Position numbers and translations under genes: made by a program. 64,000 nt of DNA from Amyelois transitella. Taxonomy: Eukaryota > Arthropoda > Insecta > Lepidoptera > Pyralidae. The DNA is taken from positions 8,331,001 through 8,395,000 of the forward strand of contig NC_083509.1 in the NCBI RefSeq assembly GCF_032362555.1, given 5' to 3'. Shown one piece after another: positions 1 to 60,769 of this stretch. The notes under the pieces are model-generated. The model did no database searches, was not told where the DNA came from, and saw only the letters and a list, made by a program, of their open reading frames with translations. Position 1 is the first letter of the stretch. Each line of letters opens with the position of its first letter.

Positions 1-2160
1 ACCAAAAATTGTATACTACATTCATCGTTACAATTATTTTTATATCATACTTAACATTTCTATATCATGCTTTGAACAGATACGAAAACTATTTCTACAA
101 AGTTACTTCAACAAATGCAATCGCCCACTTCTTATTCTATTTTTGCAGCATCATTCAATCTAGATTCTTTTTAAATAATGAAAATGTTAATTTCTATATC
201 AAATTATCGCAAATAGATAAAGTTCTTAAAGCTCATTACAGTAAAGTTATAACAAATGTCATCCATAGAATGAATTGGATTACACTTTTTACCTTGTTCC
301 TTGTTATATGTTTTGTAGTGAGTTTAGTATGTGTGACGAGAGATCTGTATCTTCTCGTATTAGTTACAGTAATTTTGGTAACTCATAGTACCGTGCTAAC
401 GGAAATTAATTTCAGCTCAAATCTTATAGTATATTTAGGTTTACATATACAAGTTATAAGTAATATATTAAGACAGCACATAGAAAAAACTGAACGAAAT
501 TTGGCACTAGAGGAATATTCAATTTTTAAGAAATATTTCATCAAGACTGTTGGATCCAAGATTTATGATTTCAATGATATTGCTCTGGATGATTACATAA
601 AAAGGATATTAACAGCGTTCTCAAAGTTTCAAAATGTTTACAAATTTCAAGTAAGATATATAGTAAATTGCTTTTGTACATAGCAGTTAAACTTATTTAT
701 AAGAAACTAATAATTTGCGAGATTAGCTAGCGTGATAAGAATTCCGATTTCAGAAGACTGGTATTGATTTATGTCAAGAGTCTCATGTTTCCAGATATTT
801 TTATTCACCAATAAAGTTGCGATGTTCATGGTTACAACGTTTGAGTATGTGCTTCTCGCCGTACAAAGCGATGTAAGTTATAAAATATTAAACACCAATA
901 TTAATGGTTTCTATAGCATATCAAATAAAATAACAATTCTCAAATTTTTCATTGATCCCGGTTGCGTCTCTTCCTCTCTGTATACGCCTACAACCAGACA
1001 CAAGACGAGGGAAATTTTTACACGAACTTACTTCTATAGGACCTCTTACGGCTTAGTTTCTCAGCCGGATCATGTATAATAACAGTTGCCTAATGGTGTA
1101 GGATGTCTTTGCCTCGATTTTTTTCCATATTTCTAGTCCATGCTCTTACGTTGAGGTAATTGGTATATGCTGCGAATGATGACTATGAATGAAATATTGA
1201 AACTGATTTATGTATTTTTTTCCCCATTCCAAGAAGTTGCATGAATGACATATAAGAATGACAATAAAAGAAAATTGGAATATTACAGAAACCTTTTATT
1301 TGCACTGGAATTACATTAATGTACCTAACCAATCGAATAGGGATTTTTTGGGAAACTGAATATATTCATGAGCTAAAGCTAATGTTGTATTTAGAAAATA
1401 TTCATATTTTTTAGGGTCCCAATCGCCTAAACTTAGTTATTTTGGCCATACTGACAACAACAGATACTTTTGGGCTATTACTTCTTTGCCTGCGCTGTGA
1501 GGCCTTAGAAAGGGATGTAAAGGAAGTTAAACTAATATCCATTAAAGTCATGTCAGTCTACCATACTGGTGAGTACTATTTACTTTTTGTCAAATCAAAG
1601 AACCTTTCTCTTCTAAACTTTAGATTTTCACTAACCCTCTAATAAGGTCTATCCCTAATAACCTGTCACTATCTGAATCACTCAAACATCAAACTATATA
1701 TCTAGCTGAACGTTGCCTTCTAGTCTTTTGTAAGATAAGTAGCTGTGTCTACCCCGTAAGGTATAAAAAGATGTGATTATATTAATGAACTTTTAAAAAT
1801 ACCTCGATGATGGAATTTGTCATTAATATAGTACCTCATTTTTATTATGTTCTTTACTATTTACAAAAAGATTATACGATAGTAAAAGTATTATTTAGTT
1901 GTTTTATGGGGACTAATGGTGCAGATATATCTAATCAAGGTATCATACCTTTTTCTCATGGCTTGAAAAATTAATAAAACAAATTGTTTACATCAGGAAC
2001 CTTGAGGGACAAAGCCAAGAAGATATATAGAGCAGTAGAAGACACATTCCCCCGGTTCTCTGTTTACGACATGTGGGAGCTGGACGCGAGACTTTTCATC
2101 AGAGTGTGCAACGTGGTCACCGGGTTCTTTGTCACTTTGCTTCAATTTACATATCTGTAA
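1..2160 (+). CDS. Gustatory receptor gene 1 (5' end outside window)
   Basis: Four visible exons: <1-650, 795-872, 1415-1568 and 1997-2160 (stop TAA at 2158-2160). All junctions are GT-AG and the frame is open throughout. The protein is a multi-pass membrane chemoreceptor of the insect Gr family, a ligand-gated cation channel subunit of taste neurons. The family call rests on several hydrophobic segments, the exon pattern with short 3' exons, and a C-terminal GFFVTLLQF that fits the Gr hallmark TYhhhhhQF with G and F replacing T and Y. About 347 residues are visible. By comparison with gene 2, roughly the first 54 residues lie left of the window. I see no frameshift or premature stop, so the visible part looks functional. 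The ligand cannot be told; it resembles the expanded, probably bitter-type receptors of moths. Intron 3 (1569-1996) holds a degenerate repeat. Confidence 0.85.
1648..1785 (+). repeat. Interspersed repeat family A, degenerate copy in Gr1 intron 3
   Basis: Matches the 3' two thirds of the family seen more completely at 48056-48315 (reverse orientation): ACCTGTCACTATCTGAATC, AGCTGAACGT and GTCTACCCCGTAAGG in order, ending in an AT-rich tail. Unclassified short repeat, probably SINE-like. Confidence 0.6.
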
Positions 2161-2916
2161 AGAAGCTATAGGAAATCATGTAATCTAGGAACAAGTATCA
2201 TCTCGGAACTGACAGTCTTTTATAGATTTATATCTAAAATTCTGTAGGTAGATAAGCTTTTTATGAATAATTGGGTATGTTCACTTTTTAGACTACTTTA
2301 TGTGGTTGCCCGGAAGAGATTACATAATGCGTTAAGGCCGCGTTTTATATATTACCTTCTTTTAAGATAGATTTTATTTTTATTTTATGTGTGTTTAAAG
2401 GGTATTCTATCTACTTCTATGAAAAAATATCAATATAATAAGGTTATTTTAAATTTATTTCATTAAACTCAACGTATTTATTTTTTATTTTCTGTGTTAT
2501 AATATTAAATATAATAATAAACAATTTTAATTATTATATTGCTTGATTTGCACAGCAAGTAAGTACGTGTTATATATCTTTTAATCAAGTAAGTTATTAT
2601 ATATAACTCAATTGTTACCTTCAAAAAAATTAATAAAAAAGAAACAAGTCACATTTCATTCCATTTGAAAATATTGAAAGTTTTCATTCATTCAAGTCAT
2701 TCTGTTCACATTAAATATGTATTTACCTGTTATCTTTCATCTATTAGAAAATACACATAAAATGTTTACTAATTATGCACATACGCAATTTGTTGCTGAC
2801 CTCGTACTTACATTAATCTAATAAAACACAATCAAATTAATGGAACAATTCATTTGAAAACTAACAAAGTTATCAACTAGACCTTTAAGCATAACTTAAT
2901 TTCAAGTCAAAACAAA
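2161..2916. other. Gr1-Gr2 intergenic spacer
   Basis: AT-rich spacer that must hold the 3' UTR of gene 1 and the promoter of gene 2. An AATAAA at 2516-2521 is a possible polyadenylation signal for gene 1. I see no further coding sequence. Confidence 0.5.
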
Positions 2917-5297
2917 ATGAAAAAGGTAGAACTTAACAAGTCCGAGTATCTTTCAAAGGACATACTCGATGAAGACTTTTTGGTGGTGTTCCGACCGTTT
3001 CGACTATTTCAATTTGTGCTTGGTTCCTGCCGTGTTGACGCTCGCCACAGATTCGTGACTACGCCTACGCGATACCAAAAATTTTACACTGCTGCCATCA
3101 TACTAATTATATTTATATCATATTCGGGAATCGCTTGTTATGCATACGACAGATATCGAAATTTCGACTACTTCTTCAAATTGTCTTTAATGAGTGAAAT
3201 CGTTCACTTTATTTTCTATCTTTCTAGCATCATTCATTCTAGATTTCTTTCGAGTAAAGAAAATGTGAATTTTTATATAAAATTGTCACAATTAAATAAA
3301 GTTTTGAAAGTCAATTCAAGTAAATTAATCACTGACGTGATTCACAGAATGAACTGGATAACCCTGTTCTCGTGGTTTCTTGTCGTATGCTTTATAGTCA
3401 TTACAGCATTTGTTACGAAAAATGTGTATTTAGTTTCTACAGTCCTGGTAATTTTGATTACCCACAGTACTGTACTTACTGAAATTAATTTCAGTTCTAA
3501 TCTGATGGTATATTTTGGCTTACACATTCAAGTCATAAGCAATATGTTTAGACATATTATAGAAAAACACGAAATTAATTTAATAAAGGAAGATTTATCA
3601 ATCTTCAAAAAATATTTCACAAAGACTGTAGGGTCAAAGGTGTATGACATTGATAATATTGCATTGGATGTCTATGTGAACAAGATTTTTACAGCATTTT
3701 CAAAATTTCAAGAAATTTATAAATTTCAGGTAAGTTGTTACATTATCTTGAGATACGTGTGTGAAAAGGAAGGCATAAGTTAAAGGTTAAAAGTAATATT
3801 GTCTTATTTGTTTACAACAATAAACTATTATACAATAATTGTATAGAATTATTAAATATGAGAAAGCTGAGTCTGAAATAATTTGTGACACAGATCACCC
3901 AATGAAAATAGAAGAAGTCAGTCAGTAATAGTCAATATACTCGTACACAGAAATCAACATCATTCTTTTAGTTCTTTCGTATCAGAATCTGAAAGAACTT
4001 AAAGAATGATGAAGAAATACCTAGATAATAATGATCAAATCTTTTTACAATCCCTCTTTTTCTGTTTTCAGATATTTTTATTCACCAGTAAAGTTGTAAT
4101 TTTCGTGGTCACAACTTTTGAGTATGTTCTTATCACAGTACAAAACAATGTAAGTTCGTAAGTTCTTCATTATGTTTGTTATAATTATCACACCTTTTAC
4201 GAACTGTCGCTTGCACTTCTCTAACCTCACAAAATTATTAATAGTACGAACTACGAAAAAAGGTACCTGAATTAAGCTTTATTTTAAAGCAAAATGAAAT
4301 ATAATTCTTTATGATCTAGCCTCATACTTAATTACGTAGCTTGAGTTATTAACTAACATCACAAAAGACCTTCGAGAGAACGAACCACTGACAAGCAACG
4401 GGTGATGTATTAAATAAATAATATAGTGATAAAATCATTCTCAAAATACATTCTTATTCTACGTCGTCAACTTATAATTGGATAATATGACCAATTCTCT
4501 TTTAGCCCAGAGTCTAAGTTTGTAATGTCTGGCCCGTTCTAAAGTCTTTTGAAAATAGACACACATGTGTCAGGCCTGTTTTACCGTGTTAATTTTATTC
4601 ATTTATGTTTATATTCCTTTCAGGGTCCAGATCGCTTAGGCTTAGGAATTTTGGCGACACTTACATTAACAGATATTATTGGCTTGCTCTTACTCTGCCT
4701 ACGCTGTGAGCTTTTTGAGAGAGGTATCAGAGAAGTCAAACTGGTGTCCATTAAAGTCATGTCTGTCTACCATACTGGTACTGATGTATTTCTTAATTAA
4801 CATCTTTTTAAAGCACCACCATATCTGTTAAGAGGTAGAGGTAATAGCAGATCAACCTACCCAATTTTACTGCAAATTAGAGACTTAACACGTAAAAGAG
4901 TTCCATGTGGTGTAACTTGATAAACGGTTGACTGTTCTAAGCAGTTATTGGCACTTTAGAGTAGTCATACTACTTATTATTTGCAAAGGCAAAAGAATAC
5001 ATTTGATTTTACAAGTCAAAGAATAAACACCGTTAATTACATGCACGACTTTGTAATATAAATGAGTGCGACTAAAAGTCACATAATGAAATTATATTAA
5101 TTATGATGTAATATCGTGTTTCAATAATTTCAGGCCCCCTAAGGGACAAAGCTAAGAAGATATATAGAGCAGTAGAAGACACATTCCCCCGGTTCTCTGT
5201 TTACGACATGTGGGAGCTGGACGCGAGACTTTTCATCAGAGTGTGCAACGTGGTCACCGGGTTCTTTGTCACTTTACTTCAATTTACATATCTGTAA
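2917..5297 (+). CDS. Gustatory receptor gene 2 (complete, tandem copy)
   Basis: Four exons: 2917-3729, 4072-4149, 4624-4777 and 5134-5297, giving 402 residues, a usual Gr length. The start ATG at 2917 sits in an AACAAAATG context. Predicted membrane segments lie near residues 54-76, 91-110, 146-167, 170-190, 278-296, 301-325 and 384-402, i.e. seven. The C-terminal GFFVTLLQF matches the Gr signature position. Exon lengths 2-4 (78, 154, 164 bp) and phases are identical to gene 1, so the two are tandem duplicates 756 bp apart. It acts as a taste receptor subunit in the dendrite membrane of gustatory neurons (family knowledge); the ligand is unknown. Oddity: exon 4 is almost identical in DNA to that of gene 1 although exons 1-3 are clearly diverged. 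Confidence 0.88.
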
Positions 5298-6264
5298 AGT
5301 AGCAAGATATATTTATGATATTAATTTATACGCCGATAATACTGGATAACTACTTATTTCGTTGAGTATAGGGACCGGCTGCTCTTAAAATTCCTGTTCA
5401 CGAGGATAGTAAAACGCGGCTAGCCTTCAATAGACGATTACTATGACTCAGTTACGAGTGACGACTGAAGGGAAACAAAGTTTGTAATAGAAGGCAAAGC
5501 GACTTTCTGATGTGTGGCTTAGTAATAGAATTAAACTCGTTCCATTAAATAAGTATACCAAAACTCAAATTATAAAAGATAGTTGAACGTAAAGGTTACG
5601 AGTAACAGCGAACATCAGTGACTATTTTTTTTTCTATTTTAAGTATAAGTGAATTTTTACATGCATTTCTATTTTACGTAGCAAAAATCAATATCTGTGC
5701 GACTACGTAAACTAAGGAATATTGAGTTCCACTCGATGGAAAAGCCGACCACAACGCTTTTGAAATAATTGAATATGGCTAATAATACAGCAATGAGTTT
5801 TTATTGCACGAAAATTAATTCTTACGAGTGAACAACGAATTGTGTTCGCCACAAGTTTTCATTACCCTTAATTTTCAGTCATTTCGGAGTCCGTAAAACG
5901 ATGGTTACAACTATTGCAATAATTACATTTATACTTAGTGTTTGCCTTTTACCGAAGATCATTTGGATGAATATTAATGAAATACTAAAAGCCAAAACGG
6001 TTCTGAGTATCACTTAAAATCTGTTATTACGGTAGCTTAACAGAAGTTTAAATGAATCAAGATATTATTGAACAGAAACCGAAATGGTTCATATTGTGTC
6101 CATTACGTTAAAAAGCTCTTTGAATGGAAAAAAAATGCACGTTCTTTAACACAACTTTCAATTATTTGCCATTTTCGTCAGGTGCATCAAAAAAAAATAT
6201 TTTTTTTTTACAAAATGTAAGTTTAAGTTGCACGATAATTTTTATAGTAACTTTTTTCGTCATT

Positions 6265-6745
6265 GTATATGTTAACGGAAATGTATGTAATCCGTCATTG
6301 TATACAATTCCTAGGAAATGTATGTAATTCCTAAAATAGCCCGGATTTGTGTGAAATAAGTTATATTAGACACATTTCCTAGGAAATCTATACATTTCCT
6401 AAATAGCAATCGGAAATGTAAAACCCGTGATGGTACGCGGGGATAACGGGGCGAGGGGCATCATTCAGAATGTTAACAAACGCTAAGAACACCGCCTAAA
6501 AATATTATTCTCATTTAAACAAGGTGTTTTATTACAGAAAGCCTTCTTTTTATATCTACATTTCCTAATACGAAATGGGAATTTTATACAATTCCTAGAA
6601 AATATATACATCTCCCAGGATATGTATGTATTAAATAATTTTTAAAACAATATTTTATACATTTCCTAAATAGCTTCGGAATTGTATACATTTCCTTGGA
6701 GTTGGATGCAATTCCTAGATTTTATACATTTCCGTTAACATATAC
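6265..6745. mobile_element. MITE-like element with terminal inverted repeats and internal palindromes
   Basis: The ends 6265-6286 and 6724-6745 are 22-bp perfect inverted repeats beginning GTATATGTTAACGGAAATG. Inside, the core GGAAATGT/ACATTTCC or close variants recur at about ten places in both orientations, often joined as palindromes such as ATTTCCTAGGAAAT (6373-6386). The phrase ACATTTCCTAAATAGC recurs in both halves (6392-6407 and around 6659-6673). There is no coding capacity. Size, terminal repeats and lack of genes suit a non-autonomous DNA transposon. A TA target site is possible, because both ends sit in TATA-like context, but no longer duplication is clear. Family unknown. Confidence 0.6.
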
Positions 6746-31349: not shown

Positions 31350-31636
31350 AGAATAGCGCCGCTGCCCGGTTCCGCCCTTTGGAAGAGCATGTGTGCAACT
31401 AGTAAACGTAAGTACTACCCCTGTTTATCCCCCCGCGAGCAACCCCAGGTGCGACGGCCGGCACGCGCCATTCCCGCCGCGGCTGGCGCCCTGACGCCAC
31501 CTAAACTCTAATCATACGAACAACTTATATCAAAGTACCGTTATCTTCTTCTACGTGAGTCAATCAATAGACTCCTCCGCGACTAATGCAACGCAAACAA
31601 TCGTAACATGTGAAAACTGCAATTCATCTCTACAAA
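31350..31636 (+). promoter_or_regulatory. asense proximal promoter and 5' UTR region
   Basis: A GC- and CpG-rich block at about 31350-31505 stands out from AT-rich surroundings and ends roughly 130 bp before the asense start codon. No TATA box at a convincing spacing is visible. The transcription start cannot be placed exactly. Confidence 0.4.
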
Positions 31637-32860
31637 ATGAGCTCAATCGGGGTCGTCGTCTTCCGCAACTCGCCACTCGGCAAGTCGCAGGTGCTCCAGG
31701 AATCCGTGAATAATTCAGTGAATATAACCAATAACGATTCCAACCAAAATGTGAGACGTGAAATTATTATAGTGAGGAAGAAACAGAAAATACAATCTCC
31801 GCCTGCGACTGTATCAGTGACTTCGTTGGTTCGTGCAGCTGATCCATCTTCAGGAAATATATCGACAAAACGACCGCGTCTTCGGGAAAATGTAGCTGAA
31901 GAAGCAAATCGTGCGCCAACACCTTTAGCAGTTGCGAGACGAAACGCTCGAGAACGTAATCGCGTACGTCAAGTTAACGATGGGTTTGCCGCCTTACGCC
32001 GACACATACCAGAAGAAGTTGCTGCAGCATTCGAGAACGCAAATTCAAACAGAGGCCCAAATAAAAAGTTAAGTAAAGTTGAAACTTTACGGATGGCTGT
32101 TGAATACATACGAAATTTGGAAAGCTTGTTAAACATTGGTCAGGCCGATAAAGAAAACTCAGGACGTCCATCGATGGAATCTTTTCCTTCGCCGGCATCC
32201 TCTTCTCCTAGAGACAATAGCCAAGAGAGAAGCTACTTTTCTCTTAATTCACCAGCTCTTGATGATGAAGATGTAGATGAAGATGAATTAGATGGTTCCT
32301 TACATCCAATATCTCAGCACCAGTACGTAGAACTGGCTGGAGCGGAATCATTTCAACTTGTTTCCACTCCACATTTGTACGAAGAGGAAGAGGGTTCAGG
32401 TCAACCTTTGACACCATCATCTGATTTGCTTGGACATGATGATGTAAATCCTCATCTTCTGGAAGGACATTTTCCGTTTCCTAATTCAGCAGAACAATTC
32501 ACTGTTATACCTGAACAGAATTATCTTAGTGAAACTGATATACCAATAAACGAAAATGATTTTGAAGTCAAATACGCAGAATCCATTCATCAACAAATAC
32601 ATAACTTTAGTGATGAATCTTCTTTACCTTTAGAAGCTATCAACCCTGATTTAATTCTTACTCATAATGGCTTCAAATTCAAAGAAAGCGACAATGAAAT
32701 AATAGATGATCAGCACTACAGTGATATTGAACTGAAGAAAGAGTTGCCAGATATTCAAGTATCTCCAGAAGACAGAGAGCAATTTGAAGAGACACTGAAG
32801 TGGTGGCAAGAGAAAACTCGGCAAGCCCGTCCACTTTTAAAATCTAAAAATGTAAATTAA
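31637..32860 (+). CDS. ase: Asense-like bHLH proneural transcription factor
   Basis: Intronless gene of 407 residues. The open frame extends 27 bp further upstream but begins there with GTG; the first ATG is at 31637 in an ACAAAATGA context, so I start there. The bHLH domain spans about residues 100-165: basic [14 protein letters not shown], helix 1 with [13 protein letters not shown], loop, then [20 protein letters not shown]. This is the achaete-scute family signature, and the IPEEV..AFE stretch plus long acidic C-terminal half fit asense better than ac/sc/l(1)sc. A conserved C-terminal [13 protein letters not shown] (383-395) matches the family's WW-containing tail. It would heterodimerise with Daughterless in the nucleus, bind E-boxes and promote neural precursor fate (family knowledge). 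A candidate E(spl) site lies upstream and K-boxes lie in the 3' UTR. Alternative: another achaete-scute homologue. Confidence 0.88.
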
Positions 32861-45635: not shown

Positions 45636-48600
45636 TCAGACCTGTGCTTTACTCAAGGGTACGTTTTCTGGCTCTTGAGGTTTACATTTACCATCTCTGA
45701 AGTACTCTTCGACTTGCAATAAAGTTTTTCCCTTTGTTTCAGGAAGGTAAAAGAACAAAAACAAGGTTCCTATTAATGTTGATAAGCCATAAAAAAGATA
45801 TGTCCCATGATGACCAATACTTTCAAACATGGCAGGAGCTGTTTTGACAGTTCCAAAAAATGCTATCGAAGTCATCATTACACTTATACCTGAACCAATT
45901 CCTTTTGTTTCTGTTGCAAACAACTCTCCCACCATATTCCAAGGTAAAGGTGATATGCCTAAATTCGATACTATAATATACATTGCCATCAAACCCAAAG
46001 ATATAATCGGCGTGATGTGTCGTATTACTCGTGTATCAACTAAATACAAGTACAGTGCTAATGTTATCAATGACAAGGATGTAAAAATTCCACTAAACAT
46101 AGCAAGCGGACGACGACCTAGTCTCCTTAATAAAACACATGCAAGGCACAACGATACACATCTTAGGACATCAATACTTAACATAGCAATATAAACAGTC
46201 TTTTTGTTTGTATGCCCTCCAATAAGTTCATTCATCATGTCTGTAGTATATGCGCAAATAACATTTACACCAGACAATTGTGTTATTATAAAAAATAGAG
46301 TCATTACAAACAACGGCTTGTAGAATTCCGGTTTCTTGATATTCAGCTTGAGCGCTTCAATTTTCCCTTTTGAATTGTCTCTTTTAGTCTGTTCTGCAAT
46401 CATTTTGTCCAGTTCTGATTTCATTTCAGGACTTGTTCCTCTATACCATTGAAAAGATGCAATACACTCATCAATTCTATTTCTAGAAGCTAACCACGCC
46501 GGCGACTCTGGTGCGTGATATAATACTATTCCTCCAACAAGAGGGAATGATCCGCAGAGGAAAGCTGCATAACTCCAATGAAGTAAAGTACCAAAAAGAT
46601 GTGACATAAAAACTCCAGCTGCTATACCTAAAGACATGGCAGCTAAAAAGAATCCTCTATATATAGGCGAACTTATTTCTCCAACGAATACTGGTCCAAG
46701 TGGACCTAACCATCCTTGACATAGACCTGTTATAAATCTTCCTATAAGTATGAGATACAATATGTCTTGTGAACATCCGATCAAAACCCAACCGCTTATG
46801 AAGAATGCAACGCATACAAGCTGTGATCGTCTTCTACCCAATCTTTCCATTAAATATCCTGATAGAAGATTTCCAAATACTAAGGCAAACGATGATATAG
46901 AGGCTGAAACAATAACATAACGATAAATTCAACGCACTAATTATTTTTAAATTTCGTTTTTATACTACTACATTAATAAGAATTACATATAATTTTACCT
47001 TACCTAGCCATGATATAGTCTCTATGGAGTATTTGTGCCTTCCCTTTGAGTGTTGTAGCTGTGGTATAAGAATTGCTGAGAATCCCGCCGTTGAACCCGC
47101 TCCAAGAGTCACCATGAATGTCCCGAAGCATATTAAAAACTGTAACAACGAAATACAATATTTTTTTTAATTCTGAAACATCTATGGTCTTGGTTTAAAT
47201 GAAATCGGAGATAACTTTTTCATGTTGGAGATATATTCTTCATTAACGTAATTTTGATTCTAATGATGACTAAAGAGAACAAACTCTTTGTTTTTGGTTG
47301 TATAAATTGTTTTAGAAAAATATGTTTTAGCTACTAAAATAATGACTAAGAATACTATCCAAGCGATTTCATGTCTCAAATTATTAATTTGACAATTTGC
47401 TACAATTTAACGTTATAATTAATTATTTATTACATATTTACTGAGAAATGAGTTCGCGACTCTTTGGCACGTGGATTGATATTGATATCATCAAAGAAAA
47501 CAAGATAGATGTCAACTAATAGAAAGTTGTTATCAGTGTACACGAGTTTGTATGACCTTTATTTAGTAAACATTTCGTATTTAACATTTTCCGTAACAAA
47601 GTTGATGAAAGTTAGAAATTTATTAACACCAAATTTCCTCGATTATTTTTTATCATTAAATTTATCATTCAGTATTTTAAAGTAAAGAAGACATTGAGCC
47701 AAAGTCAAGAGCAGATAAGATGTATTAAATCAAAAACAAATCAATCTTAGACAGAGATTGCTTGAAACAAACAAATCTGTGTATCATTTACTTTAGCGAA
47801 TCTGATCGTAAGCATAAAGCATTTTCTTAGGTAAACTATTGTGAAAGACCTATGTAGCCATAGTGATCATACTCTATATATATTTTGTTAATACAGCTTT
47901 ATAAAAACTTACAACAACACGTTATTTTACATTAATTTTGAACAAGGAACTCTGTTTAGGTATACCTATTATTAAATTAAAATTAAGATATATATTATAT
48001 CTCAATTAAAATTAAGATTAAAAAAATGGCCGTGCGTCTTATGTGATAACATAATACATACATATAATCACATCTATGTATATCACTTGCGTGGTAGACA
48101 GAGCCATCAGTCTTGAAAGACTGATAGGCCACGCCACGTTCAGCTGTTTGGCTTAATGATAGAATTGAGTTTCAAATAGTGACAAGTTGCTAGCCCATCG
48201 CCTAAATAAAGAAACCCAGGTTTATAAGCCTATCCCTTAATCGCCTTTTACGAAATCTATGACAAAGAAAAGGAGTGGTCCTATTCTTTTTCTATTGGGC
48301 CCGGGAACCACACGACCCATTACCTCATAAAATTTCTTTTCTATTGCCATTAATTACACAAAATGTAGAATATTATATGGATCCATACAAACAATCACGT
48401 GGCCAGATAAAGAAATAACTTCAGAGACATAAATTGGAGACTGTAATAAAATCATTTATGCAACTCTCTAAAAATGTGAGATTATGAAAACTATAGGTAA
48501 TTCTTAAGACAGTTGCTAGTTTGGGTGAAATTATTATATCCATTTAGATATTAGTTGTAAGAGGAAGGAGGAAGAAGCAATTATTAAACCTATAATATTT

Positions 48601-51227: not shown

Positions 51228-54200
51228 ATGAGCCAGTTGCAAGAAGATGCGGTGGTGGAGCAACTACACACCACGACCAAGTTTGCTACCTACACCCTGA
51301 TCGTAGTCACCGCCGCTCTATGGCTGCTATGGAGACAACAGAATCAGTCTAGACTATACAGATTGGGTAACAGGCTCCCTGGACCACCAGCTTTACCATT
51401 GTTTGGCAACGCCCTCAGTGCGATTGGGATAAAAACCACAGGTAATTGTCAAGTTTTTGTATTGTCATTGTACTTAGCTGCAGCTACTATCACTTTACAT
51501 AATAATATTTCTTTGAAATACCTGGTTGACTGGACGAAATCCCTCACACGGATAAGTCCGTCCGTCGGTAATGTATTTTTATGTATTACTTATTTAATTT
51601 GTTATGTACAATAAAGAATTTACAAACAAACAAACAAGTACTCGTATATGCAAAAATGTATAAATGAAGATGTTTTATCTAGCATGCTTTTTCGAATGCT
51701 TAATGGCTTAATATATATCTAATATATTATAATAATATACTTTAGTGTGAAATTTCACATGCCGTTATCTGACTAGAGTCACGTTTTTAGAATTGGGAAT
51801 CGTCATATTTTATATGTACTCTACTTCTTACAAATTTCCCTAAAATCTCAGTCCAGAGTTTTGCGAAATTTACTGATACTCAATTTTCATATTATCTGTT
51901 CAACAGATGTAATAAGAATTTGTCTTAACTACTCCGCTCAATATGGTCCAGTGGTTCGTGCCTGGCTCGGTAACAGGCTCTACGTATTCATCCAAAACCC
52001 TGACGACATTGAAGTTATCCTAAACAGCCAGATTCATATCGAGAAATCTGATGAATATGATCTTTTCAAACCTTGGCTGGGCGAAGGACTACTTATAAGT
52101 AAAGGTACGTAGGGTATTTAAGAGTACAGAGAGTATTATCGAAATCTAACTCTATATTAAGCTGGCCGATTTCTCATTCCTGATAATCATTTTAATTATT
52201 ATTTTCATTGCAGGCAACAAATGGAGAACACATCGGAAATTAATAGCGCCAACGTTTCACATAAATATCTTGAAATCCTTCATAAGTGTTTTCAATCAGA
52301 ACAGTGTGAATGTGGTGAAGAAAATGAAGAGGGAAATTGGAAAAACATTTGATGTTCACGACTACATGAGTGAAACTACTGTGGACATACTGCTTGGTAA
52401 GCTCGGTAACTCGGAATATCATAATACTGTGATTAACAGTTTATGATATTCCGAGTTAAACATAAAAAGCGAAAGACTGTATACTATAAGACTGATCACT
52501 CATATACTTACATTGTTTTCCAGAAACTGCTATGGGTATTACTAGGAAAACACAAGATGAGTCTGGTTTTGACTACGCAATGGCTGTTATGAAGTAAGTA
52601 GGCGCTAATTATTAAATTAATTTTGTACAATATTCCTCTTAAAACAATTGTTTAAATTTTATTTGGGATATCTTCATTTCGAATTAATTGTTTATAAAAA
52701 AAATATTATTGTTTTCTTGTAGTGTCTAACTACTTACATTTATTTACAGGATGTGTGAAATTATTCATCAAAGACATTACAAACTATGGCTGCGATTGGA
52801 TTACACGTTCAAATTTTCATCATTTTTCAAAAAACAAATTAAACTTTTAGAGATTATTCATGGATTAACAAACAAGGTAAATACAAATGATGTGAGCACA
52901 ATTAATTTTCACTGCATGAAACTTTAGATTCTTGTGAAATATTCACATCAATTTTTTCAGGTAATAAAAAGTAAAAAAGAAATATATCTTGACAATAAGG
53001 CTAAAGGTATTGTTACACCTACAATGGATGAGTTAACTAGAACAAACGTCGATACTGAAGCAAATAAAACCATATCCGACAACGTTTTCAAAGGACTAAG
53101 GGATGACTTAGATTTCATTGACGAAAACGATGTAGGTAAGTAAGTAAAATAACACGGAGTAACGTATATTTTACATAAATAGCGATACATATAATTCGCC
53201 TATATCCTTTGCGAGGTAGAAAGAGCCAGAAGTCTTGAAAAGTCTTATCATTTAAACATCATCTTTATTATATTTAAATTAACTTTAAAAAATCATTTGG
53301 TACTAGTTTTTAAACAAATTAATCTTTTGAAAAAAACAAGCAAATAAATGTACACAAAATTTACTTACTTTAATGGAAGAAATTAATCTCTTGTTAAAGG
53401 TGAAAAAAAACGTCTTGCCTTTTTGGATCTTATGATAGAATCCGTTCAAAGTGGAACAAATATAATAACGGATCACGAAATTAAGGAACAAGTAGATACG
53501 ATAATGTTTGAGGTAAGAAGATGTCTGAAATATCAGAAAATCTACATAAAATATCGCAATGAAGATGAAAGCTGAGAATTTTTTATTCACAAACTACAAA
53601 GGTGTTAAATTGTTACGTTTTAAATGTCAAATACTTAGTTCGACATTCCGTTGTCGGTTTTGATTAAAGTTCTTTATGTAAATCATTATCATACATGAAA
53701 AACACTACAGATAAATCTTCTTATTTATCCGTAGGGTCATGATACCACAGCAGCTGGATCAAGCTTCGTATTATGCTTACTGGGTGTCCACCAGGACATT
53801 CAAGATAAGGTATATGACGAATTGTATGAGATCTTCGGAAACTCTGATCGGCCCGTTACATTTGCTGACACGCTGCAAATGAAGTATTTGGAAAGAGTAA
53901 TTCTAGAGTCCTTAAGGTTGTACCCACCGGTACCTGCTATTGCTAGAAAATTAAATCGCGATGTCACTATTGGTAAGTAAATATATGTAACAATACAATA
54001 AATCTTCTAAGACAACCATAACCATCACAATAATATATTCCATTTGAGAATGGGCGGACTTATGCTAAAGGCATTATCTAAAAATCAACCTTTGAGTTGA
54101 ACGTGTGGGCGTAACGTAGAAGGCGTAGAGTAAATTTATGTATGAAAGCATGTAAAATGATTCAAGTAAATAATTAGGTTAACTCTTTTTCTCTATGAAT

Positions 54201-57407: not shown

Positions 57408-60400
57408 ATGTCGGTCATAATTGAAGAAGAAACCGGTTACCACTACGGTTATTCTCGTCTAATCTTCTACCCCTTGCTGTTACTTGCGACTGGGCTATGG
57501 CTTTTTCATAGATGGCAACAACAGTCCAAAATTTTCATTCTGGGAAATAAAATACAAGGCCCTTCTACGATACCTTTTCTTGGGAACACTCTTCTGGCAC
57601 TAGGGAAAACGCCTTCAGGTAAGTTTTAATAAACAGCGATTTTTTACTCGTATTGAACGCATTTTAAAGTTTGGTACATTTGGCTATTTGAATTTGTCCA
57701 TAAGGTATAGGAATTATTATCATAACACATAACATAACATTAAATCACGTCTATCTCTCTTGCGGGGTAGACAGAGCCAAAAGTCTTCAAAATACTGAAA
57801 GGCCGCGTTCAGCTGTTTGGGTTAATGATAGAATTGAGAATTGAGGTTGGTAGCCCATCGCGTAAAGATAGAATCCCAAGTACGTAGTCCAAGTAAATAA
57901 GCCTATACCTTAGTCGCCTTTTACCGCCCACATGGAAGAGATGGAGTGGTCCTATTCTTTGCCGGGAACCACACGGCACTATTATTATAACACAATGTTT
58001 TTAATGCTTCACTTTTTAAAAAACTCACTAAATTCAATTTCGACAACTATTTCTAGAAGATGAAAAGGGACCACAATAAAAAAATATTTCATTCTAAATT
58101 GTCAGGGTTAACTAACTATATTGTGACACTTATTTAGATTTTTCATTACTACTGAATTAACCATTGTAGATATTTTGGAACTATCAGTGAAATTATCAAA
58201 AAAATACACGAAAATCGCTCGCATTTGGTTTGGAAATAAACTGGTCGTGTTTCTTACGGAACCTGACGATGTCGAGGTAATTCTTAACAGTCAAGTTCAT
58301 ATCGATAAATCAGCAGAATATGCATTCTTCAAGCCTTGGCTAGGTGAAGGATTACTGATTAGTTCTGGTAAGTGTAAAATATGTATTAACAATACGTTTT
58401 CAAAATTTACATAAAGGGTGCGAGAATCTATAAAATTTAGCAAAATAAACTCGATGATGTCTGTTCTTAATTTTTAATATGATTTTTTTTTAATAAACCT
58501 TTTTATAGTATACTATCCTTTTCTTCATCATTATTATTTAAGGTCACAAATGGCGATCACATCGTAAAATGATTGCTCCGACGTTTCACATCAATATTCT
58601 GAAGTCATTTGTTGGTGTTTTCAATCAAAATAGTTTAAATGTTGTGGAGAAACTCAAACCTGAAGTGGGCAAAGTGTTTGATGTCCACGACTATATGAGT
58701 GGTGTAACTGTGGATATTTTACTTGGTAAGTATCGAAAGTATTCTTTAAAATGTATTTCAATAACTATGACTTTCTAATAACTTACTTTATACTTATAGA
58801 AACTGCTATGGGAATCAATAGAAAAACACAGGACGAGTCTGGTTTCGATTATGCTATGGCTGTTATGAAGTGAGTATTATTTTGTTATAAATATTATACA
58901 AGAAAATATATCGCTGAATCTGCTTTAGTGACTGGTTCGCTTAGATAGATAACCCGAAGAACTAAATTTTAACGAAGTTTTTTAATTTATTAAATTTACC
59001 GTGTGTTACAGAATGTGCGATATTATCCATCAGAGACATTACAAACTTTGGTTAAGATTTGATTTCATATTCAAACTTACTTCAATATTTAAACAGCAGA
59101 TCAAACTTCTGAAAATCATCCACGGCCTCACCAATAAGGTAAATTTTCTAACCTTCCGTCTTAATGATATAGTAATATTATAATTAAAAATATATTTTAT
59201 CATATTAACCTCGTATTTTGAAGGTGATCAAGCAAAAAAAGCAAGTTTATATGGAAAACAAGGCCAAGGGAATTATACCAAATACCATTGAAGAGTTAAT
59301 CAGATCAAATAATGAAAACGATTTAGTGGATGACACTAAAACTTTAGCTGATATGGTTTTTAAAGGTTACCGAGATGATCTTGATTTTAATGACGAGAAT
59401 GACGTTGGTAAGAACGAAAATACTTAGTAACGAGTATTATGCATTGGTGTTGTGTTCTACGTTGATCTCATTAAACTTTTTTTTCAGGTGCGAAAAAACG
59501 TCTTGCTTTCTTAGATCTCATGATTGAATCGGCGCAAAATGGTACTAATAATATTACAGACCATGAAATTAAGGAAGAAGTAGATACAATAATGTTTGAG
59601 GTTAGTATACAAATGTTTTAAGTAACTTTTTTCTTTATCTCAAATCGTATTTTTTTTATTTAATTATTTTTATTTGCTGAATAATCGGAAATTTTGTTGA
59701 CAGGGTCACGACACTACAGCCGCTGGTTCTAGTTTTGTCTTGTGTCTTCTTGGAATACATCAAGATATACAAACGAAAGTGTACGATGAATTATACGAGA
59801 TATTTGGTGATTCTGATCGTCTAGCAACTTTCAACGATACTCTGAAAATGAAATATCTCGAACGAGTAATACTTGAGTCGCTCAGATTGTACCCACCTGT
59901 GCCCATCATTGCTAGGAAACTGAATCAAGATGTCAAAATTGGTAAGCAACTTACAGAGAAAAGAGGAAGTTGACATACTAAATCTAGTAGTGGATATATC
60001 CAATCTGTACTTGCACAATTTTCAAAACGTTGTTTGTTTGTAGGTTATAAGACCTAAATAAATAGTAAATGTCTTGCAATACAATATTGTTTTTAGAATC
60101 TAACACTCAAAATATTATTTTCTTGACAGTTACAAATGGGCACATCCTCCCAGTCGGTTCGACCGTGGTCATAGGCACATACAAGATCCACCGCAGCGAG
60201 AAATACTACAAGGATCCGGAAAAATTCAATCCAGACAACTTCCTCCCTGAAAATACTGCGAATAGGCACTACTACAGCTATATACCTTTCAGCGCGGGAC
60301 CTAGGAGCTGTGTTGGTATGATCATATGCATTGTTAAGATTTGCTTTAATATTTTTATAAACTATATCAACCTAAGTAGTCCCTTTTTTAATAATAATAC

Positions 60401-60769
60401 CAACTAGATCCACTTATATTACATTTGTTTTTTTGTTTGTAATATCTTTATTGCATAGAAATTTACAAATTAACATGAAAATAGTTATAAAATTACATTT
60501 AATATCGGATCGGATTCTAAAAATATCGTTTAAGATTATTGATATCCAGATTAGCTGGAGCTTACGATAATCTTAAAATTACAGGTCGGAAGTATGCAAT
60601 GTTGAAGTTAAAAGTGTTGCTATCAACAATTCTTCGCAACTTCAAGACCACTTCTGCGGTGAACGAGCAGGGCTTTAAACTGCAAGCCGATATAATTCTG
60701 AAGAGAGAAGATGGTTTCCGGCTGATGATTGAACCAAGGAAACGAGTTCCTTCTAAAACAATCAACTAG
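57408..60769 (+). CDS. CYP4G: CYP4G cytochrome P450, copy B
   Basis: Ten exons: 57408-57618, 58170-58367, 58543-58725, 58800-58869, 59012-59138, 59224-59407, 59488-59600, 59704-59941, 60130-60315 and 60585-60769, giving 564 residues. The frame is open upstream only from a TTG, and TATCCCCAG ends six bases before the ATG, so I read a spliced 5' UTR and start at 57408. I-helix GHDTT begins at residue 363, ExxR at 420-423, heme Cys502 in [11 protein letters not shown]. The acidic CYP4G insertion is present ([13 protein letters not shown]). All introns sit at the same places and phases as in copy A; only exons 1, 6 and 10 differ in length. The role should be hydrocarbon synthesis like copy A, possibly in another tissue or stage. 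The hinge is IQGPSTIP rather than LPGPP. Acceptors TTATTTAAG (exon 3) and TTTTGAAG (exon 6) are weak. Confidence 0.93.
57722..57977 (-). repeat. Interspersed repeat family A in CYP4G-B intron 1
   Basis: Near full-length minus-strand copy ending in GCCGGGAACCACACGGC. The flanks ATTATTATCATAACACA and ATTATTATAACACA look like an imperfect target-site duplication. Copy A of the gene lacks it at this position, so it inserted after the duplication. Confidence 0.65.

Follow-up and report, generated by a model that had tools for sequence, protein, structure and literature searches.

The last exon of two tandem genes at one end of our Amyelois transitella window (the whole stretch of 64 kb that was analysed) is nearly identical in both copies, in a pair that has diverged strongly elsewhere and whose flanks are unrelated. 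We attribute this identity, with a probability of roughly 0.85, to homology-bounded interlocus gene conversion, either from one gene of the pair to the other or from another member of their array. Both genes lie on the plus strand and have four exons, gene 1 at 3-2160 and gene 2 at 2917-5297. The 5' end of gene 1 is beyond the window edge, its model starting at position 3, and the four exons of gene 2 encode a product of 402 aa. In both spliced models the internal exon edges carry GT/AG and the frames are open until the stop. The features are as follows.

3..650, plus strand: gene 1 exon 1, 5' part outside the window; open frame that aligns with gene 2 exon 1, donor GTAAGA
795..872, plus strand: gene 1 exon 2; AG/GT edges, frame kept
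1415..1568, plus strand: gene 1 exon 3; AG/GT edges, frame kept
1997..2160, plus strand: gene 1 exon 4, the last, stop included; from the spliced model and the alignment with gene 2
2005..2160, plus strand: probable conversion tract of gene 1; 2 of 156 nt unlike 5142-5297
2917..3729, plus strand: gene 2 exon 1; ATG start, open frame, donor GTAAGT
4072..4149, plus strand: gene 2 exon 2; from the spliced model
4624..4777, plus strand: gene 2 exon 3; from the spliced model
5134..5297, plus strand: gene 2 exon 4, the last, stop included; from the spliced model and the alignment with gene 1
5142..5297, plus strand: probable conversion tract of gene 2; from the repeat pair, codon statistics and changepoint scan

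For exon 3, gene 1 has the stronger donor (GTGAGT, against GTACTG in gene 2), and the exon 1 products are 64% identical in amino acids.

The contrast between exon 4 and the remaining exons carries the argument. From AGGGAC to the stop codon the two genes differ at only two of 156 bases (GCC/GCT and TTG/TTA), both synonymous, just as the original prediction had it, and a repeat search independently recovered the exon-4 pair as copies 3.1 kb apart. The same prediction held exons 1 and 3 to be much diverged, and indeed nucleotide differences amount to 189/648 in exon 1 and 39/153 in exon 3, with 13/78 in exon 2 and 6/162 in exon 4 (347 aligned codons; the stop, codons 1-53 of gene 2 and a gap of two codons are omitted). 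Where both genes encode the same residue, Met and Trp excluded, the block (codons 352-402) has 2 differing codons in 49 and exons 1-3 have 82 in 192 (Fisher P 2.8e-8). By NG86, dS is 0.062 in the block and 0.15 over exon 4 as a whole; exons 1-3 have 1.28, or 0.87 by YN00. Single exons vary: exon 2 alone gives an NG86 dS of 0.38 over 26 codons. Exon 2 (795-872, 4072-4149) is also low in synonymous differences, with three of 18 same-residue codons differing, and is too short to reach significance in a changepoint scan.

In 10000 codon-column shuffles no identical run grew beyond 53 nt, against 122 nt for the longest one observed; outside exon 4 no identical run is longer than 17 nt. A changepoint scan of same-residue codons delimited a low-divergence segment at codons 356-395, in which none of 38 differ, and its score was reached in 0 of 1000 permutations. 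A second such segment within exons 1-3 was not significant, since 675 of 1000 permutations reached the best one. Selection at the protein level cannot explain this synonymous identity.

The synonymous sites of exon 4 could in principle also have been fixed since the duplication by a constraint at the DNA or RNA level, through splicing signals, RNA structure or an overlapping gene. Such a constraint would fit a block that coincides with an exon, and also a protein segment that is fully conserved, none of its 51 residues differing between the two genes. However, folding of exon 4 is nothing unusual (z +0.86 on the plus strand in gene 1 and +0.24 on the minus strand in gene 2), no Rfam family was found in 1-6500, and the lone antisense frame that is open through gene 1 exon 4 has a stop in gene 2. 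Moreover, four of the six differences in this exon fall within its opening 8 nt, one of them a Thr/Pro change. Altogether, we consider constraint, although the main rival, an improbable explanation.

The edges of the block are equally informative. Similarity begins 8 bases inside exon 4 on the 5' side and ends at most a few bases beyond the stop on the 3' side. A comparison of the two third introns by blastn gave no match better than E 0.16, that of the 3' flanks gave one off-register match (E 0.038), and neither intron 3 nor the 3' flanks yielded a collinear alignment. The expectation that similarity would be lost just within the 5' exon edge and after the stop, between unrelated flanks, was therefore borne out. 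What is found here, a bounded tract of excess identity that includes synonymous sites, in diverged paralogues with unshared flanks, is the pattern by which gene conversion is recognised. A crossover or a copied segment is disfavoured, because flanking sequence would be expected alongside and would be recognisable at about 6% synonymous divergence, yet it is absent.

Near-identical exons only 3.1 kb apart, in an assembly judged from its sequence alone, might also mean that a recent DNA duplicate of exon 4 replaced an older exon, or that the assembly is in error. For a copied piece, breakpoints would have to coincide with both exon edges and the insertion with a functional place, and a simple assembly collapse would not give two differences within the block together with unlike flanks. 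Nor did a displaced exon turn up in the window: searches of the 64 kb by blastn and tblastn for a third copy, an exon-4 relic or further related genes returned nothing convincing, the best matches outside both genes being E 0.18 (exon 4, blastn), E 0.81 (exon 4, tblastn) and E 0.076 (gene 2 protein, tblastn). We thus regard both versions of this explanation as very unlikely. Beyond the window, in searches for orthologues, the gene 2 protein gave 23 pattern matches in viral contigs and the exon-4 peptide 127 in prokaryote genomes, none of which was confirmed in either set.

A spliced cDNA used as the conversion template would account for the fact that only exonic sequence is common and the introns are untouched, and the end of exon 3 is also alike (one of nine same-residue codons differs in codons 339-348). 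However, the four differences at the very start of exon 4 are not what a tract running across the exon 3/4 junction would produce, and the scan found no significant second segment in exons 1-3. A cDNA template is scarcely credible here.

Conversion of the last exon, as originally predicted, thus explains far better than any rival why synonymous divergence is near zero here, in a diverged pair with unrelated flanks; the part of that prediction that invoked GC bias is only suggestive. We infer that conversion between the paralogues, or into both from an array member, made or kept exon 4 near-identical; the donor may be either gene of the pair or a further array member beyond the window. A new strand that enters non-homologous sequence cannot anneal back, and conversion by strand pairing consequently predicts a tract that ends at both limits of homology. 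The copied tract would have stopped at just these limits, 8 bases into exon 4 and a few bases after the stop codon, since neither the introns nor the 3' flanks are similar enough to pair. Exons 1-3, with identical runs of at most 17 nt, would have escaped conversion. Since they lack any longer run, exon 4 probably never diverged as far. Repeated rounds of conversion, added to the conservation of the protein since the duplication, probably kept it similar and hence convertible, as the last convertible island of the pair. From the block dS of 0.062 (0.007-0.25, Poisson limits for two changes), and at a rate of 2.9e-9 per site per generation, the age would be about 11 (1-44) million generations, to be read as an order of magnitude only.

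Several points count against this scenario. Had exon 4 diverged as far as the other exons, with runs of at most 17 nt, it would have offered little for conversion to act on, so that recurrence must be assumed. The tract is short (156 nt). Exon 1, the longest exon, shows no conversion, contrary to what a purely length-driven process would give. Finally, the raised GC content at third codon positions (GC3) shades into exon 3.

This last point bears on the proposal that a GC-richer block was left by GC-biased conversion. The GC content of exon 4 is 0.457 in both genes, against 0.275-0.432 in exons 1-3, exon 3 being close (exon edges were 1 nt off in places). GC3 is 31/51 and 29/51 in the block and 90/293 and 97/293 in exons 1-3, hence nearly twice as high, and no 51-codon stretch of exons 1-3 exceeds 23/51. 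The rise persists after control for amino acids (P 0.0001 and 0.0009). Exon 3 is intermediate, and compared with it alone the block stands out weakly (P 0.029 and 0.17). The elevation beyond the amino-acid effect fits GC-biased repair, for which such a footprint is suggestive and not diagnostic; raised GC3 may also be a long-standing property of the exon. For Leptidea butterflies, an estimate of GC-biased conversion is given in the part of PMC8175052 available to us. We put forward tentatively, and with more doubt than belief, that exon 4 is a recurrently homogenised module: conversion would have reset it alone since the duplication, while the remainder of the receptor diverged, and the GC3 footprint would be its trace. 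Members of the array would then have one C-terminal segment in common.

Other frames in the window have GC3 values of 0.30 (helix-loop-helix), 0.28 (sugar transporter), 0.49 (cytochrome P450) and 0.43 (unassigned). The first is a 416-aa open frame at 31610-32860 on the plus strand with a helix-loop-helix domain (PF00010, E 1.3e-19), which may be an achaete-scute type gene. The second is a 404-aa open frame at 45636-46850 on the minus strand that matches the sugar transporter family (PF00083, E 1.6e-57), and the P450 match (PF00067, E 1.1e-23) at 60069-60407 on the plus strand is probably one exon of a larger gene. A frame at 51228-51614 gave no Pfam match. At 6277-6722, short diverged direct and inverted repeats cluster around GGAAATGTAT; they are perhaps the remnant of a mobile element or a satellite.

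Both genes are likely gustatory receptors, an identity that sequence tests do not prove. Gene 1 matches the Pfam family 7tm_7 along positions 31-368 of the 370 of the profile at 17.5 bits (E 0.0026), under the curated cut-off of 26.6, and gene 2 does not match it even at E 10. When exons 2-4 of gene 1 were compared with the PDB, solved gustatory receptors were the sole matches up to E 10 (8vc1, E 0.008; 8uvt, E 0.025), collinear to the C-terminus; the whole protein gave E 0.017 and 0.052, respectively. Exons 2-4 of gene 2 reached 8vc1 only at E 1.5, ranked second behind an unrelated chain, and the whole gene 2 protein did not match the solved gustatory receptors. A structure model of exon 1 only, built from a two-row alignment, was too poor for judging a seven-transmembrane channel fold (mean pLDDT 40.3). 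In insect gustatory receptors, the last short exon encodes the C-terminal motif TYhhhhhQF (PMC3732137). Here, the C-terminal GFFVTLLQF aligns with TYLVILIQF of 8vc1, with QF kept and TY replaced by GF, a variant absent from those given in the portion of PMC3732137 at hand. According to the excerpt of PMC4817054, Type 1 lepidopteran bitter receptors are proteins of about 400 aa encoded by 3-4 exons. With 402 aa, four exons and three introns, gene 2 resembles these BmorGR58-like receptors in size and exon count. A difference lies in the Pfam family, which gene 1 matches below the cut-off and gene 2 not at all.

Gene conversion among chemoreceptor paralogues has been reported before. In Drosophila, a high conversion probability was reported for 8 of 14 orthologue groups tested, in a paper that also warns of false positives arising from differing selective constraint (PMC4122928, in the sections available). 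The copies of exon A of Gr39a are another case (PMC2204066), and conversion was offered as an alternative for the Gr59d copies of Drosophila suzukii (PMC5144986), as far as the available parts of these papers go. For a Gr64 gene of Drosophila willistoni, the accessible text of PMC2667405 describes no evidence of partial conversion. Our pair resembles the Drosophila cases (PMC4122928, PMC2204066, in the same sections) in the much greater similarity of one part of the gene, compared with the remainder, between tandem paralogues, and differs from them in that the tract is the last exon alone and the introns of the pair no longer align. Our searches of open-licence papers on gene conversion in gustatory or odorant receptors, or in last exons, turned up no case of last-exon conversion in Lepidoptera. 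A further parallel is the Dlx pair of Capitella teleta, a diverged linked pair with a short tract of surprisingly high nucleotide identity; in that pair, however, the genes lie tail to tail, the tract takes in some intron and the GC content of the tracts is no different from the rest, whereas GC3 is raised in exon 4 here (PMC3199776, from the portion available).

We read the present case as a clean instance of a process already known and not as a new kind of system. As a sharply bounded natural case, it bears on the question of how little homology interlocus conversion needs. It also bears on whether conversion allows the parts of a chemoreceptor to evolve at different rates, and it is a warning that gene trees built from the C-terminal sequence of such receptors can mislead.
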